The notes beneath the pieces were generated by a model, which was given only the letters and a program-made list of their open reading frames with translations, was not told the DNA's origin and ran no database searches. From assembly GCF_007990545.2 (NCBI RefSeq), contig NZ_AP019829.2, forward strand, positions 806,001 through 870,000: a stretch of DNA of 64,000 nucleotides, written 5' to 3'. Source of the DNA: Leptotrichia wadei. Its GTDB lineage: Bacteria; Fusobacteriota; Fusobacteriia; Fusobacteriales; Leptotrichiaceae. Position 1 is the stretch's first letter. The number at the start of each line of letters is the position of its first letter. The position numbers and the translations under genes were made by a program. Shown here piece by piece: positions 26,214 to 57,011 of this stretch.

Positions 26214-26308
26214 TTGTGTAGAAAAAATAATTGGGGATTAAATTTAAGGAAAATGGCTTAAAATTAGATTTAGAAGTTAAAAAATATTGTTATTTTAGGA
26301 GATTGGCT

Positions 26309-27157
26309 ATGAAGAAGGTTAGAGTTACAATTTCGGATTTTATGAATGAAATTATAAAAAGTGATTCAGAGTATTTTAAAATGCCTGTGGGAAGAATAGG
26401 GAACATAATTTTTAAATATTATATGGATAAAAATTTGAATAAAGTGGAATTGGGGAACTTTTCAGGAGAAGTGCTGCAGTTTAACTTGAATAAAAATAAT
26501 GATGAAATTTTTATGGATACTTTTGTTAGAAGCAGAGTTGAAACTGAGGCTGAATATTGGAGAAATATAATTTTTACGTATATTAATAATTTACGATATA
26601 AACGTGAAGAAATATTATTTGAAAAGATTTTTAGGAAAATTAAGGAAGGAATGGAGAGTAAGAGAAAGATAAAAATAAAATATCATAAATATATAAGGCT
26701 AGTAAGTCTGTATTTTGTAAAAGTGGCAGATGACGAAAACAGATCTTACTTGTTCTGCTACTGTGAAAAAAATAATGATTATAGGAATTACAGAGTTTCT
26801 GAAATAGAAGAAGTATGGTTTACAAATGAAAATATTGAAATAAAAGATAAAAAATATATTGATGATGTGCATAAAAATTTTGCTCCGTTTCTATCGTATA
26901 AGAACACAGTTAAAGTTGAATTTACAGAAAAAGGAGTGGAATTATATGAAAAAGTTTTGACAAACAGACCTAGACTTTTAAATAAGAAGGATGGGATTTA
27001 TATCTTTGAATGTGATAACAAACTTGCATTGGTGTATTTTGCACAATTTTTTTCAAATGTAAAAATCTTAGAACCAATTGAATTACAGGAAAAATTAAAA
27101 AATGAACTTAAAAGGACAATAGAAATATATGAAACTGAGGAGGAAAAAAATGTTTAG
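26309..27157 (+). CDS. WYL-domain transcriptional regulator
   Basis: A 282-residue protein. The start at 26309 has AGGAG eight bases upstream; a TTG at 26231 adds 26 residues without one. Residues 1-40 (VRVTISDFMNEII...RIGNIIFKYY) resemble a ribbon-helix-helix DNA-binding region. A WYL-type beta domain follows (KIKIKYHKYIRL...RSYLFCYCEKN..YRNYRVSEIEEV, about residues 118-180), then a WCX-like C-terminal domain. WYL proteins sense nucleic-acid ligands and often control phage-defence genes. The next gene starts inside its last codons, so it is expressed with, and probably regulates, the two genes after it. Confidence 0.75.
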   Translation: MKKVRVTISDFMNEIIKSDSEYFKMPVGRIGNIIFKYYMDKNLNKVELGNFSGEVLQFNLNKNNDEIFMDTFVRSRVETEAEYWRNIIFTYINNLRYKREEILFEKIFRKIKEGMESKRKIKIKYHKYIRLVSLYFVKVADDENRSYLFCYCEKNNDYRNYRVSEIEEVWFTNENIEIKDKKYIDDVHKNFAPFLSYKNTVKVEFTEKGVELYEKVLTNRPRLLNKKDGIYIFECDNKLALVYFAQFFSNVKILEPIELQEKLKNELKRTIEIYETEEEKNV

Positions 27158-28898
27158 ATTAAGAGGGAGCAGAAGGAGAAAAACAGAGGAAATTATCAAA
27201 AAATTTTTAAAAAGTTATGCTCAAAATGAGAAAAGTGAAAATAAAAAGGATTTGAGAAGCTGGTTAATTTTTGAATTGCAAAATGAACTTGCTGATAAAA
27301 ATATACAGGAAATAGAAAAAATGGCTGATGAACTTATGGCAGGAGTTGAAATTTATTTTGACAAGAAAAAGGAAGTGGAAAAATATCAAAAAGTTGGGAT
27401 AAGCAGCAGTGATTATGTGGGAGATGTGATACTGGATAAAATTTCGAAAGATGTAATAAATGCGGAAATTGTGGATAGAAAGCAAATTATTAGAGATATG
27501 AAGGAAAGCAGTGAAATTTTAGCAAATTACAACGAGGCAATGATATATGAAGCAGCCGCAATAAACGATCCGCAAATAGTAGAAAATACATTGAGTGCAA
27601 ATAGAGCAAATACCTATGTTGACAATGTAAATTCAGCTATAGGCAAGTCAAATGAGGAAATTTTGTCAGCACTTACAACTAAAACTGGAGAAATAAGCCA
27701 AAATCCTAATTTAGATGGATTTATATTTGAAGAACGTCATGCTGGAACGTTCAATATAGATGCGGCAGTTAAAGAAAAAAACTACTATGCAAAGGCACTA
27801 AAGCCAGAAATAGGCGAAACTTATGGAAAAAATTCGATTGACATGACAATAGAAGATTCTGGCAAGATTGTAAGAAAATATCAGGCAAAAGCCTATAAAA
27901 ATGCCAATGAAACTGCAAAATCATTTTATGACAGACAGCAAGGTTACAAATATAAATTTCAGTCAAAATTAGTTCCGTCAGATCAGACTGGAGATATTCC
28001 AAATTCAGTAGATAAGATGAAATTTGGAGAAGTGGAAAGTAAAAATATAAGCAAGGAAGAAATAAAAAATATTCAGGAAAAATACCAGTCTGGCGACAAA
28101 GAAGCAGTAAAATTCAGTTTTGAAAAAGACGTAGACGCTCTTGCAATAAGCAAACAACTAGGAAAACAGGCTGTAATCAATGGAACTATGGGAGTTGGTA
28201 TTGGAATGGCTTTGGATGTTGGAATAAAACTTGTTTCTGGAGAAGAAGTGGAAGTTGCTGAAGTAATCGAGGCTGGAGTGAAGACTGGAACTTCAATGGG
28301 ACTTTCAACAGCAGTTGCTGGAGGAATAAGGGTTGCAGTCGAAAAGAATGTTGTGCCGAAAGTCTTTGCTGGAGTTTTAGCAAATAATAATGCAGTTGGA
28401 GCAGTTGCGGCATCTTCAATGGATATTATAGGAACGGCGTTTAAATTAGGCTCAGGTGAAATAAGTCTAGGAGAAGCTACAAAAAGGGTAGGAACATCAG
28501 TAGGTTCTGCTTATGGAGCAATAGTTGCTTCAAATGCTGGTTTTATAGGTGGAATGGCAGTGGCTGGAGCAATTGGGCTGGGAGCATTGGGAGTTGCAGG
28601 AGCAGTTGTTGGTGGAGCGGTAGCACTTGCGGCAGGAGCAGTATGTGGAATAGTTGGAAGTAAAGTTGGCGGAGCGATAGCCAAAGGAGTGGGAACTATT
28701 GCAAAACCTGTAATTGATGGATCAACTGAAATAGTAAAAAAAGGAACAGAGGCAGTAAAAAGCGTTGCAAAAGGAGCATGGGAAGGAGTGAAAGCAGTAG
28801 GAACAGCAGTAGCTTCAGGTGTAAAAGCGGTAGGAAGTGCCTTAAGTTCGGCAGTTGGAGCAGTAGGAAGTTTTATTGGAGGATTATTTGGATGGTAA
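27150..28898 (+). CDS. Possible QxK-nuclease-core protein with glycine-zipper C-terminus
   Basis: A 582-residue protein I do not recognise as a named family. The ATG at 27150 follows GAGGAGG and overlaps the WYL stop by eight bases. Residues 1-60 are basic and helical. About residues 190-250 hold FEERHAGTFNIDAA, SIDMTI (D231) and KYQAKAY (Q245, K247), an E...D...QxK order and spacing like Mrr-type PD-(D/E)xK nucleases. About residues 250-350 are charged. From about 355 to the end the protein is dominated by G, A, V and S with GG and GxxxG repeats, ending GSFIGGLFGW, like glycine-zipper membrane-inserting or pore segments. A nuclease or pore-forming effector is a hypothesis. Confidence 0.6.
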   Translation: MFRLRGSRRRKTEEIIKKFLKSYAQNEKSENKKDLRSWLIFELQNELADKNIQEIEKMADELMAGVEIYFDKKKEVEKYQKVGISSSDYVGDVILDKISKDVINAEIVDRKQIIRDMKESSEILANYNEAMIYEAAAINDPQIVENTLSANRANTYVDNVNSAIGKSNEEILSALTTKTGEISQNPNLDGFIFEERHAGTFNIDAAVKEKNYYAKALKPEIGETYGKNSIDMTIEDSGKIVRKYQAKAYKNANETAKSFYDRQQGYKYKFQSKLVPSDQTGDIPNSVDKMKFGEVESKNISKEEIKNIQEKYQSGDKEAVKFSFEKDVDALAISKQLGKQAVINGTMGVGIGMALDVGIKLVSGEEVEVAEVIEAGVKTGTSMGLSTAVAGGIRVAVEKNVVPKVFAGVLANNNAVGAVAASSMDIIGTAFKLGSGEISLGEATKRVGTSVGSAYGAIVASNAGFIGGMAVAGAIGLGALGVAGAVVGGAVALAAGAVCGIVGSKVGGAIAKGVGTIAKPVIDGSTEIVKKGTEAVKSVAKGAWEGVKAVGTAVASGVKAVGSALSSAVGAVGSFIGGLFGW

Positions 28899-29030
28899 AA
28901 ATAATAATATCGTTTTAAAATTAAAGTTAAAAAATTCTAATTAAACTCTGTAGTATTAGATTAATTTAATTTTAAATGAGTTAGAGCATATTTATAAAAA
29001 ATTGAAATAAATGAAAAATCAGGAGGAAAA

Positions 29031-31349
29031 ATGGAAACAAATTTATCAAAGTATTTAAGGGCAAGAAGACCTATAATTTGGGTACACAGTGGAGATTATA
29101 AGGAAGTTGACACAATCGTAACGGAAGCGACTAAGGAATATAAAAGCAAGGCGATTTTTGAATACAGGGCCTTTGGAGCTGTGAATTTTGAAACAAAGGT
29201 TAAAAGTGATGAGATTATGGATTTGTACAGTTTTTTAAATATTTTATTTTCTGAAGGTGTGAAAACTAATGTGTTTTTGATAATTAAGAATGCAGAAGAA
29301 GAAATGAAAGATGCTAAGAATATTGCACTTATAAAGAAAATAGCAGAAACTAGATATTCAAATTCAGATTATAATTTTACAGTAATTGTAGTAACAGAAG
29401 CAGAAACAGTACCGAAGGATTTGGAAAAATTTACTTCGATACTTGATATTCCAAACATGACAAAAGACGAGATTGAAAAATATATTTGGAACTTTGCTAA
29501 AGAAAATAATGTGAATGTGGATAAAAATGATGTTGGGGAAGTTGCAATTTCGTTAAAAGGGTTGACAAAACTGGAAATAGATCACGTTCTGAATATGATA
29601 AATGAATCTAAGAATAATATTTCAATTTCGGGAAGAGATATAATCATTCGTGAAAAAGGACAAATAATTAAAAAATCTTCAATTTTGGAAATTATTGACT
29701 TTAAGGAAAAAATAGAAGAAATTGGTGGGCTTGAAGGATTGAAAGAATGGCTAAGTTCTAAGGCACAAGTATTTAGAAGACTGGATGAAGCCAAGAAATT
29801 TGGAGTGGATACGCCAAAAGGAGTACTGCTTGTAGGAATGCCGGGCTGTGGTAAAAGTTTGGCAGCAAAAGCAAGTGCAAGATTGTTTAACGTTCCATTA
29901 TTAAGACTGGATATAGGAAGACTTTTGGGAAAATACGTTGGAGAATCAGAACACAATATGAGAGTGGCACTAAAAACAGCAGAATCAATAAGTCCGTGCA
30001 TTTTATGGATAGATGAAATAGAAAAAGCATTTGCAGGAATAGATCAAAACGGTGGAGCAAGCGACATAACAAAACGTTTATTTGGACAATTTTTGACTTG
30101 GTTACAGGAAAAAGAAAACACGGTATTCGTAGTAGCAACAGCCAACGATATAACAGCCTTCCCGCCAGAATTTCTAAGAAAAGGTCGATTTGATGAAGTA
30201 TTTTTTATAGATTTTCCAAACGAGGAAGAAAGAGAAAGAATATTTGAAATTCACCTTGAAAAAAGAGGAAAAATGTCAGACGACATAAACTTGAAAGAAC
30301 TGGCAGAAGAAACAGAAGGCTACTGTGGTGCTGACATAGAAGAAATCGTTAAAAACGCAGTTGAAAATAAATTTATACTAGAAACTGAAAATGAAGAAGA
30401 TAAGAAAATTACAACAAATAATTTATTAGAAGCAACTAAAAGTATAGATTCTTTATCGAATATTTTATCTGATAAGATAGATGTTTTGAAAAAGAGCTAT
30501 AAAAAATTCAAAATAAAATCAGCTTCTCAAAAAATAAAAAATGGTAAAAGAATAGCTGGAAGACCAACATTTAAAGATATGGTTATAGTAAATGGAGGAA
30601 AATACACACCGTCATTCTTTAACGAAGAAAGAGAAGTTTGCAATTTAGAAGTTTGTAAATATCAGACAACACAAGATATGTGGATGGAAGTAATGGAGAA
30701 TAATCCATCAGAATTTAAAGGTGGAAGACGTCCAGTTGAGAATGTATCTTGGTGGGATGCTTTGGAATTTTGTAATAAATTGAGTGAGAAACATGGATTA
30801 AAACCTGTTTATGATTTAAGTCGAAAAGAAGAAGGAATATTAAGAATACATCAATCAAATGGTAAAATAGAATACCCAAATGTAGTAGATTTTAGAAAAA
30901 CTGAAGGATTTAGATTGCCAACAGAAGTAGAGTGGGAATGGTTTGCAAGAGGTGGAGAAATTGCGATACAAGATGGGACATTTAATTATAAACATTCAGG
31001 AAGTGATAATTTAAATGAAGTTGCTTGGTATTATGCAAATTCAGAAAATCGTACTCATGATGTAGGAGCGAAGAGGCCAAATCAATTAGGACTTTATGAT
31101 TGTAGTGGAAATATATATGAATGGTGTTATGATACAGGTAGTGATGGATATATATCAGAAAAAACACCATATATATACGATGAAACAGAAGAAAGTAGAG
31201 TATTAAAAGGAGGGTCTTGGAATAATTTGAATTATAAAGATATTGAGTATGAAATATTTGAACGATATTCTGATAAAGCTGAGAATAGTCAGAAGTATTA
31301 TTATGTTCTAAAAGCTTCTTATGGTTTCCGTATTGTTAGAACAATTTAA
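29031..31349 (+). CDS. AAA+ ATPase fused to FGE-like (C-type lectin fold) domain
   Basis: A 772-residue protein with an ATG after CAGGAGG. Residues 1-225 resemble the N-terminal region of Ycf46-like AAA proteins. Residues about 230-450 are a full AAA+ module: GMPGCGKS (K275), WIDEIEK (D328, E329), the sensor TANDIT and arginine-finger region FLRKGRFDE. From about residue 510 there is a formylglycine-generating-enzyme/sulfatase-modifying-like domain (MVIVNGGKY, NVSWWDALEFCNKL, FRLPTEVEWEWFARGG, LYDCSGNIYEWC, RVLKGGSWNN, YGFRIVR). The catalytic cysteine pair of true FGE enzymes, located after RGGS, is missing, so the domain is probably a binding module. It follows the QxK protein by 132 bases on the same strand. 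Confidence 0.85.
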   Translation: METNLSKYLRARRPIIWVHSGDYKEVDTIVTEATKEYKSKAIFEYRAFGAVNFETKVKSDEIMDLYSFLNILFSEGVKTNVFLIIKNAEEEMKDAKNIALIKKIAETRYSNSDYNFTVIVVTEAETVPKDLEKFTSILDIPNMTKDEIEKYIWNFAKENNVNVDKNDVGEVAISLKGLTKLEIDHVLNMINESKNNISISGRDIIIREKGQIIKKSSILEIIDFKEKIEEIGGLEGLKEWLSSKAQVFRRLDEAKKFGVDTPKGVLLVGMPGCGKSLAAKASARLFNVPLLRLDIGRLLGKYVGESEHNMRVALKTAESISPCILWIDEIEKAFAGIDQNGGASDITKRLFGQFLTWLQEKENTVFVVATANDITAFPPEFLRKGRFDEVFFIDFPNEEERERIFEIHLEKRGKMSDDINLKELAEETEGYCGADIEEIVKNAVENKFILETENEEDKKITTNNLLEATKSIDSLSNILSDKIDVLKKSYKKFKIKSASQKIKNGKRIAGRPTFKDMVIVNGGKYTPSFFNEEREVCNLEVCKYQTTQDMWMEVMENNPSEFKGGRRPVENVSWWDALEFCNKLSEKHGLKPVYDLSRKEEGILRIHQSNGKIEYPNVVDFRKTEGFRLPTEVEWEWFARGGEIAIQDGTFNYKHSGSDNLNEVAWYYANSENRTHDVGAKRPNQLGLYDCSGNIYEWCYDTGSDGYISEKTPYIYDETEESRVLKGGSWNNLNYKDIEYEIFERYSDKAENSQKYYYVLKASYGFRIVRTI

Positions 31350-31611: not shown

Positions 31612-31750
31612 CTATAGACTAAATCTAAAAATTTTTTGAAAAATAAGAAATTATATAGTGTAATTATGTTAAAATTTGATAAAAATAATATAGAAAGGAT
31701 AGTAAATGGAGAAAAAAACTATTAATTTTATAAATAAAAGGAATTGAAAT

Positions 31751-31847
31751 AAAAAAATAAGATAACCTCAGGGGCAAAGGAATTCTAAGATTTTAATCCT
31801 ACTCCTATCCAGGAACCCAGCACTAATCCTTCACAAGTTATCTTGTT
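31751..31847 (-). ncRNA. Candidate structured small RNA, minus strand
   Basis: About 95 nt. On the minus strand the ends AAGATAAC and GTTATCTT (31837-31844 and 31759-31766) close the molecule, and the 3' end continues into ATTTTTTTATTT, a terminator-like tail. Inside are the hairpins TCCT-GGAT-AGGA and TAGGAT-TAAA-ATCTTA. The 5' end can instead fold as ACAAG-ATAA-CTTGT, which excludes the closing stem. A consensus promoter lies just upstream. It carries none of the conserved signatures of SRP RNA, tmRNA or RNase P that I can see. Confidence 0.55.
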
Positions 31848-31853
31848 AAATTA

Positions 31854-31881
31854 ATTATATCATAATTTCATAAAATGTCAA
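31854..31881 (-). promoter_or_regulatory. Consensus promoter of the minus-strand small RNA
   Basis: TTGACA (31876-31881) and TATAAT (31854-31859) on the minus strand, both exact consensus hexamers, 16 bases apart. The predicted start is about seven bases before the structured RNA. Confidence 0.7.
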
Positions 31882-31942: not shown

Positions 31943-32150
31943 ATCTTAGTAATTAAATTAGAAGTAGAAACATTGTTTCTCACCTTTCCATCAATATATT
32001 TAGGTTTTGGATTGACTTTCCAAATAAAAATAGAATGATTAGTTCTATTTTAGGATGAGTTGGGTATTAGTTATTTGATATTTTGTAATGAAATGGGTAT
32101 TTTTATTGTACTGATTTTATTGTGAGATTTATTTATATAATAACTATTGA

Positions 32151-32177: not shown

Positions 32178-32205
32178 ATTGTAAAAAAATTAGGAGGTGT
32201 TTTTT

Positions 32206-32730
32206 ATAAGAGGAAATAACCGATTTGATGAGCCACGAATGAATGAGCGAATTAGAGTAAGAGAAATTAGAGTTGTTGGTGATGATGGGGAGCAGTTTGG
32301 AGTAATGTCTACACGAGATGCATTAGCACTTGCGACAGAAAAAGAACTGGATTTAGTCGAAATTTCACCAAATGCAACACCGCCTGTATGCAAAATTATG
32401 GACTATGGAAAATTCAAGTATGAGAAAACGAAGAAAGACAAGGAAAATAAGAAAAAACAAAAAAATATTGTTGTTAAAGAGATTAGAATTAAACCTCATA
32501 TTGATGAACATGACAAGGATACAAAAATTTCTCAAATTGAAAAATTTATAGCCAAAGAGCATAAGGTAAAAGTTAGCCTAAGACTTACAGGTAGAGAAAG
32601 ATTACATGCGGAATCTGCTATTAAAGTATTGGATGAGTTTGCAAGTCATTTTGAAGAAATTGCGACAGTTGAAAAAAAATATGGAAAAGAACAGGTTCAA
32701 AAATTTATTTTATTATCGCCTAAAAAATAA
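32206..32730 (+). CDS. infC: Translation initiation factor IF-3 (AUA start)
   Basis: A 174-residue IF-3. It has the N-terminal domain (RVREIRVVGDDGEQFGVMSTRDALALA), PPVCKIMDYGKFKYE, a lysine-rich linker and the C-terminal domain (VVKEIRIKPHIDEHD to RERLHAESA). The AGGAGG at 32192-32197 is eight bases before an ATA at 32206, in frame. No ATG, GTG or TTG is positioned for it; the GTG at 32197 lies inside the Shine-Dalgarno. IF-3 rejects initiation at unusual codons, and in E. coli infC uses AUU so that IF-3 limits its own synthesis; AUA here would do the same. Confidence 0.93.
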   Translation: MRGNNRFDEPRMNERIRVREIRVVGDDGEQFGVMSTRDALALATEKELDLVEISPNATPPVCKIMDYGKFKYEKTKKDKENKKKQKNIVVKEIRIKPHIDEHDKDTKISQIEKFIAKEHKVKVSLRLTGRERLHAESAIKVLDEFASHFEEIATVEKKYGKEQVQKFILLSPKK

Positions 32731-56843: not shown

Positions 56844-56909
56844 AGCAAAGAGTTTTACTTCTTGTTGCAAGATAAAAAAGTAAAAAGTCGATAAATATAA
56901 ATAGAGATA

Positions 56910-56985
56910 AAAACACAGTTCTGGTTGGTAGTCCAGACGCAGTAATGTAAGTAACCTGCCTCCTTAGGTTGTCCATTCTTTATTA
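56910..56985 (+). promoter_or_regulatory. yjdF-type riboswitch leader
   Basis: A G/C-richer structured leader before the YjdF-family gene. It has the hairpin CTGG...CCAG (around CTGGTTGGTAGTCCAG, 56921-56936), a joining segment ACGCAGTAATGTAAG, and a second stem AACCT/AGGTT (around 56953-56970), followed by GTCC. The UUGGUAGUCC and CCUGCCUCCUUAGG blocks agree with my recollection of the yjdF motif RNA, an aptamer responding to azaaromatic compounds. The downstream YjdF gene is decisive support. The site ends about 25 bases before the ribosome binding site, which suggests control of translation. Confidence 0.75.
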
Positions 56986-57011
56986 TAAATTTTTTTAGGG
57001 AGGCTGAAATT

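Follow-up and report, generated by a model that had tools for sequence, protein, structure and literature searches.

What is the small RNA that lies upstream of an infC-like gene in Leptotrichia wadei, and why does it stand there with no gene of its own? The window examined was a stretch of 64,000 nucleotides (nt) of this species (NCBI RefSeq assembly GCF_007990545.2, contig NZ_AP019829.2, positions 806,001 to 870,000 of the forward strand). The element lies on its minus strand between positions 31751 and 31881, where a first-pass annotation had described a structured small RNA (sRNA) behind a consensus promoter. It belongs to an RNA family that is found tail to tail with genes for a HEPN-domain protein, and comparison with related genomes indicates that in the window the gene was deleted and the RNA retained. 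The RNA is probably an antitoxin of that protein. The features are collected in Table 1.

The promoter hexamers were as first described, exact TTGACA and TATAAT 16 nt apart; TG precedes the −10 hexamer, and the pair was the only exact promoter match in the 64-kb window (0.05 expected from shuffles). The RNA start was placed at about 31847 from the position of the −10 hexamer (approximately 7–9 nt past the promoter) and the end within the T run, which gives a minus-strand RNA of about 95 nt. Its complementary ends also proved real: AAGATAAC and GTTATCTT form a perfect closing stem (31844–31837 with 31766–31759), followed by seven T. The open reading frame (ORF) list of the window contained no ORF in the 31751–31881 region, and an Rfam scan returned nothing at the gathering score and only chance-level matches up to E = 10, in keeping with the earlier statements that the RNA has no reading frame and no recognized family. 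The folding energy was unremarkable (z = −1.24; 22/200 shuffles folded equally well), and since energy alone makes no case, the claim of a structure rests on covariation among relatives.

Table 1. Positions of the RNA, its parts and the adjoining genes in the window (CM, covariance model)
Feature	Position	Strand	Remark
Orphan copy of the structured RNA (probable antitoxin)	31751..31847	minus	full-length CM match G000:C1:837759-837844
−35 hexamer TTGACA	31876..31881	minus	exact
−10 hexamer TATAAT	31854..31859	minus	exact
P1 5' arm	31835..31844	minus	97.6% paired in 78 distinct relatives; two-sided changes in 6/10 pairs
P2 5' arm	31816..31823	minus	invariant TGGG; two-sided changes in 4/7 P2 pairs
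P3 hairpin TCCTGGATAGGA	31803..31814	minus	100% paired; two-sided changes in 3/4 pairs
P4 hairpin	31788..31799	minus	74.9% paired; two-sided changes in all 3 modeled pairs
P2 3' arm	31772..31780	minus	P2 longer and covarying in core-only copies
P1 3' arm	31759..31768	minus	overlaps the toxin stop codon in intact loci
T run ending the RNA	31751..31757	minus	7 T, 3' of the closing stem
Relic of the DUF3644-REase toxin gene, 42-nt ORF	31706..31747	plus	start codon and 11 codons joined to the last ~25 nt
infC-like gene	32197..32730	plus	synteny anchor with G003, G007 and G008

A sensitive DNA search found relatives of the RNA in three other genomes of this genus (98–99% identity; one of these has a second copy) and two copies in another genus. 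By blastn, the RNA occurred in 40 phage records (Streptococcus, Staphylococcus, Listeria, and others) and also in plasmids. Among the Fusobacteriota, 10 of 98 genomes carried it, in a scattered distribution tied to DUF3644 genes. A covariance model (R1) was built from ten RNAs, and the window copy, itself one of these seeds, scored 93.1 bits against it (E = 7.5e-27); independently of R1, blastn ties the window copy to the phage copies. The family is defined by a closing stem P1, a joining strand J1, and a stem P2 that leads to a junction from which hairpins P3 and P4 emerge, around a conserved TGGGTTCC..GGAGTA..AGAATTC core, and the window copy has P1, the junction, and the core. A shortened RNA-like match without P3 (L135:7700-7755, minus strand, 27.4 bits) was seen on a prophage contig that also has a full RNA-toxin pair.

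Covariation was assessed in an alignment (A5) of 80 RNAs (78 distinct) from loci selected by protein similarity (see below), which were fitted to the model, so that the alignment is biased towards it. In this set 92.9% of cells were paired, 16/24 pairs had two-sided changes, and the covariation score was 0.382; in slid controls, with the partner moved by one to three columns, pairing did not exceed 57.3% and the score did not exceed 0.081. P1 variants can be read from the raw sequences (GATAAC/GTTATC, GTCAAC/GTTGAC, CACCAAC/GTTGGTG), and the covariance check that the first-pass annotation had proposed found compensatory changes in six of the ten closing-stem pairs. P4 varies in length, and subgroups differ by one in its register. 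Inside the closing stem of the window copy, the energy-minimum fold is at −22.8 kcal/mol vs. −10.0 kcal/mol for the covariation-supported fold. The energy-minimum fold was rejected as the real one, because streptococcal UGUG/CACA variants do not allow its J1 GGA/UCC helix, which is also missing from the core-only copies described below; it was dropped in favor of the covarying P2. Upstream of the RNA, 44/79 relatives have a perfect −10 hexamer (shuffled DNA gave 6) and 31/79 a perfect −35 hexamer; this enrichment argues that the RNA has its own promoter. A T-rich stretch follows P1 in 79 relatives. Judged by these sequences, this is a structured RNA family with a sigma-70 promoter, outside Rfam.

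To what the RNA belongs was approached from the protein side, with 80 genome and 80 viral loci picked only by similarity to a protein with DUF3644 and EC042_2821 domains. The RNA was found on the opposite strand directly past the gene in all 80 genome loci, with one RNA match per paired locus. These loci came from Bacillota, Actinomycetota, Cyanobacteriota/Melainabacteria, Spirochaetota, and one Planctomycetota metagenome-assembled genome (phyla from record titles). It was found in 77 of the 80 viral loci, and in the other three the contig breaks off no more than a few dozen bases from the gene. In the reverse test, on viral contigs picked by the RNA pattern alone, the gene was in place, convergent, at 82/115 RNA sites. 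The gene's stop codon and the RNA end share a median of 2 nt (usually 1–29 nt), at the P1 end. The Listeria phage, and most of the streptococcal phages that were examined, have the RNA between the integrase and a convergent gene, and those of these genes that were scanned encode DUF3644 and the EC042_2821 restriction endonuclease (REase)-like domain; the pair was also found in Corynebacterium phage Poushou and in a Leptotrichia-like genome (G016, contig 52). This protein subgroup, which PADLOC classes as the candidate PDC-S19, is inseparable from the RNA.

The partner is a protein of about 330 amino acids (aa) with an N-terminal HEPN ribonuclease (RNase) domain (DUF3644), a C-terminal EC042_2821 REase-like domain, and an RNxxxH motif (R-N-x3-H) conserved in the partner alignment A2. 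DUF3644 has been recognized as a HEPN family (PMC3710099). AlphaFold gave a confident helical N-terminus (mean predicted local distance difference test score, pLDDT, 82), and the best sensible Foldseek matches, all above E 0.001, were HEPN proteins such as MntA-HepT and archaeal AF_0298; a sequence-level PDB search with the partner protein gave no match. By its domains, the protein is predicted to be an RNase toxin or abortive-infection effector, for which the open-access literature searched contained no published test of RNase toxicity or anti-phage activity (PDC-S19/DUF3644).

In the window, the RNA has no convergent HEPN-REase gene ending at its 3' end. At the same site upstream of infC, a related genome (G008) carries the RNA with an intact gene for a 344-aa HEPN-REase protein (L040:6066-7100), which matches PDC-S19 at 8.7e-131. 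The alignment of the window with this locus (G008:C1) contains a single 953-bp gap: the window retains ATGGAGAAAAAAACTATTAATTTTATAAATAA, which encodes MEKKTINFINK, the same as the start of the G008 protein, and then the last ~25 nt before the RNA. A hidden ORF or a toxin surviving elsewhere in the window genome (G000) was looked for and none was found; G000 yielded no DUF3644 gene of the RNA-linked group. On this comparison, the window RNA is an intact orphan whose toxin gene was lost by deletion. Similar losses were seen elsewhere: two further genomes (G003 and G007) keep the RNA at the window site with a PemK/MazF-like gene in the toxin's place (Pfam on the G003 copy), and broken toxin genes adjoin the RNA in G008:C4, G047, and G073. 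Full-length orphans adjoin integrases, and their convergent neighbors vary (Abi_2, PemK, SIR2, DUF2326, CapA).

Abi_2 genes recur near the RNA. One accompanies it in G016:C5, and an Abi_2/AbiD-type HEPN gene occupies its convergent slot at three loci (L038:3268-4389, L332:9540-10587, L249:1858-2979), possibly by partner exchange between HEPN toxins. An abiF RNA serving the Abi_2 genes in G016:C5, L249, and L332 was looked for there and none was found. The window genome has two Abi_2 genes (G000:C1:1149050-1149658 and G000:C2:206-919), whose products might interact in trans with the orphan RNA.

Several orphan sites on phage contigs carry a trimmed form, without P1, the J1 strand, the promoter, and the T run; the P2/P3/P4 core is kept and P2 is lengthened. 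The clear core-only cases are L232, L258, L262, L265, L266, L285 (a 210-kb phage contig), L288, L290, and G026 contig 17. Their lengthened P2 and P3 covary independently (two-sided changes in 8/14 pairs), and slid controls collapse. Genes for tRNAs or tRNA-like molecules lie near the copies in L232, L258, L262, L265, and L285, a tRNA-Ser gene closely follows that in G026, and in G063 a diverged copy immediately precedes tRNA-Gln; the copies in L266, L288, and L290 showed no tRNA next to them. Terminase small-subunit genes are found close to the copies in L262, L265, and L266, whereas those in L232 and L290 have late-regulator-like genes nearby. In L232, L258, and L265, a tRNA-like gene whose predicted anticodon has four bases (cccc) stands directly before the core-only RNA (716-791 of the sub-stretches). 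A Twister-sister ribozyme match (L223:2892-2961, minus strand, 44.7 bits) was noted on a phage contig with an orphan RNA. The core-only copies look like counter-defense decoys, and the company that several of them keep with tRNA genes may hint, speculatively, at tRNA as the target of the toxin.

Four facts have to be accounted for: the linkage to a HEPN gene, the promoter with a conserved fold, the RNA outliving the gene, and the phage core. An inhibitor explains all four and an activating cofactor the first two. Because of this, and of the precedents of RCd22 and pseudo-ToxI (see below), an antitoxin is favored: by sequence and analogy, the RNA is probably a type III-like antitoxin of the HEPN toxin, kept as an orphan after toxin loss. 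Transcribed from its own promoter, it would be bound through the P2/P3/P4 core by the HEPN protein and hold the toxin inactive, as RCd22 does with AbiF, and phage attack or loss of the RNA would free the toxin in defense of the cell. The orphan would be kept probably because it still neutralizes the same toxin arriving on other elements, and the core-only phage RNAs could act by the same inhibitory logic as counter-defense decoys. For the wider picture, the scales are evenly poised: a multi-phylum phage-defense module may exist in which a HEPN-REase is held by a convergent, free-standing RNA, phages answer with a minimal core that several times has tRNA genes for neighbors, and orphans persist as immunity in bacteria and prophages that have shed the toxin.

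Several observations weigh against the antitoxin interpretation. Distant DUF3644 proteins (24–39% identity) have no such RNA, so RNA pairing marks a subgroup and the domain can function without RNA. The match of the HEPN fold to toxins in the PDB is weak, with no Foldseek match at E ≤ 0.001. The high identity of the window-site RNA among four Leptotrichia-like genomes (98–99% vs. 92–95% for infC), which counts in favor of the antitoxin, could partly reflect recent transfer. Unlike in known type III systems, the RNA is not upstream of, repeated beside, or co-transcribed with the toxin.

The strongest competitor to the antitoxin, though an unlikely one, is that a HEPN-REase ribonucleoprotein effector has the RNA as its obligate cofactor or sensor, with the bound RNA licensing or triggering cleavage, in the manner of a Cas13 guide RNA or retron msDNA. 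The near-perfect linkage of one RNA to one effector would suit such a role, as would the large conserved junction, and RNA-requiring HEPN effectors are known. However, the RNA repeatedly survives deletion, breakage, or replacement of the effector, without which a cofactor has no obvious use. The core-only copies in phages also speak against it, although a trimmed core could be a dominant-negative decoy.

It is improbable that the RNA acts as a type I-like antisense, by base-pairing to the toxin mRNA at its 3' end or through convergent transcription that blocks the toxin. The tail-to-tail layout with an overlap at the stop codon invites this explanation, but the overlap is short and confined to the P1 end, and conservation sits in the non-overlapping core, also in orphans, for which there is no mRNA partner, and in core-only copies, from which P1 is missing. 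Slightly less probable still is that the RNA serves prophage cargo slots as a terminator or an element at the cassette end and is kept as adjoining cargo genes swap: the full-length orphans beside integrases, with their varied convergent neighbors, would fit, but such an element needs neither a covarying junction nor its own promoter, and the core-only copies lack P1 and the T run. An ordinary host trans-acting sRNA or switch upstream of infC, as the first-pass annotation had it, is the least probable, its location and consensus promoter notwithstanding, given its DUF3644-linked presence in so few Fusobacteriota genomes and the fate of the proposed switch: the ACAAG/CTTGT pairing is possible in the window copy, but all five pairs occur in 4/80 relatives and column 10 is C in 42/78, which breaks an A-U pair, so that no conserved, mutually exclusive alternative pairing of the riboswitch kind was found.

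Other features of the window were recorded. On the plus strand at 26231-31349 are genes for a protein with a WYL domain, for one of 589 aa that has no clear domain and is rich in glycine/alanine at its C-terminus, and for an AAA ATPase-FGE-sulfatase fusion; the ATPase of the fusion matches PADLOC IetA models. The segment that was compared, 27.0–31.4 kb, is present in G003 and G007 (90–92%) and has no match in G008, which retains the DUF3644 gene; this pattern may mark a defense-island hotspot upstream of infC. A weak partial L20 leader match (31956-32000, plus strand, E = 0.059, cut at the search boundary) lies just upstream of the infC operon, and a strong azaaromatic (yjdF) riboswitch at 56897-56992 (plus strand, 89.7 bits).

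With the RNA, a catalogued protein-only defense candidate becomes a protein-RNA module whose RNA family is not in Rfam 15, and the control of HEPN toxins by RNA, known from AbiF, is probably extended to a different architecture. Rfam 15 and open-access papers contained nothing on the RNA, and the papers nothing on its core sequence or on PDC-S19, while DUF3644 occurred in a single one of them; subscription journals and most preprints lay outside this search, so an earlier description is possible. The orphan and core-only copies amount to a natural experiment, which predicts the portion of the RNA that suffices for silencing the toxin, and its use by phages in counter-defense.

Among known systems, the closest is that of Clostridioides difficile, in which RCd22 (abiF RNA, RF03085) neutralizes the HEPN toxin AbiF by direct binding (PMC12373285). 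Both have a phage-borne structured RNA of about 100 nt linked to a HEPN protein. RCd22 is upstream of its toxin gene, co-directional and co-transcribed, with two hairpin motifs, whereas the RNA here is an unrelated single junction that lies downstream of its gene, is read from the other strand, and has a promoter of its own; its partner, unlike AbiF, is a HEPN-REase fusion. In line with this, cmscan found no match to RF03085 in the window or in the paired, orphan, or Abi_2-linked loci. With type III systems (ToxIN, AbiQ, TenpIN, CptIN), the module would share an RNA antitoxin that controls an RNase toxin with abortive-infection activity. In those systems, tandem RNA repeats directly precede the gene of a ToxN-like toxin and are transcribed together with it, with an attenuating terminator; here, one RNA unit converges from the opposite strand downstream of a HEPN toxin. 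Phage PhiTE escapes ToxIN by a pseudo-ToxI RNA, through antitoxin mimicry (PMC3475682), and in the core-only copies, too, phages carry the RNA component of a toxin module. Unlike pseudo-ToxI, they are trimmed to a core with a re-built covarying stem and occur in many phages, several beside tRNA genes, with a presumed function. PADLOC lists PDC-S19 as a protein-only candidate, to one subgroup of which an RNA partner is added here.
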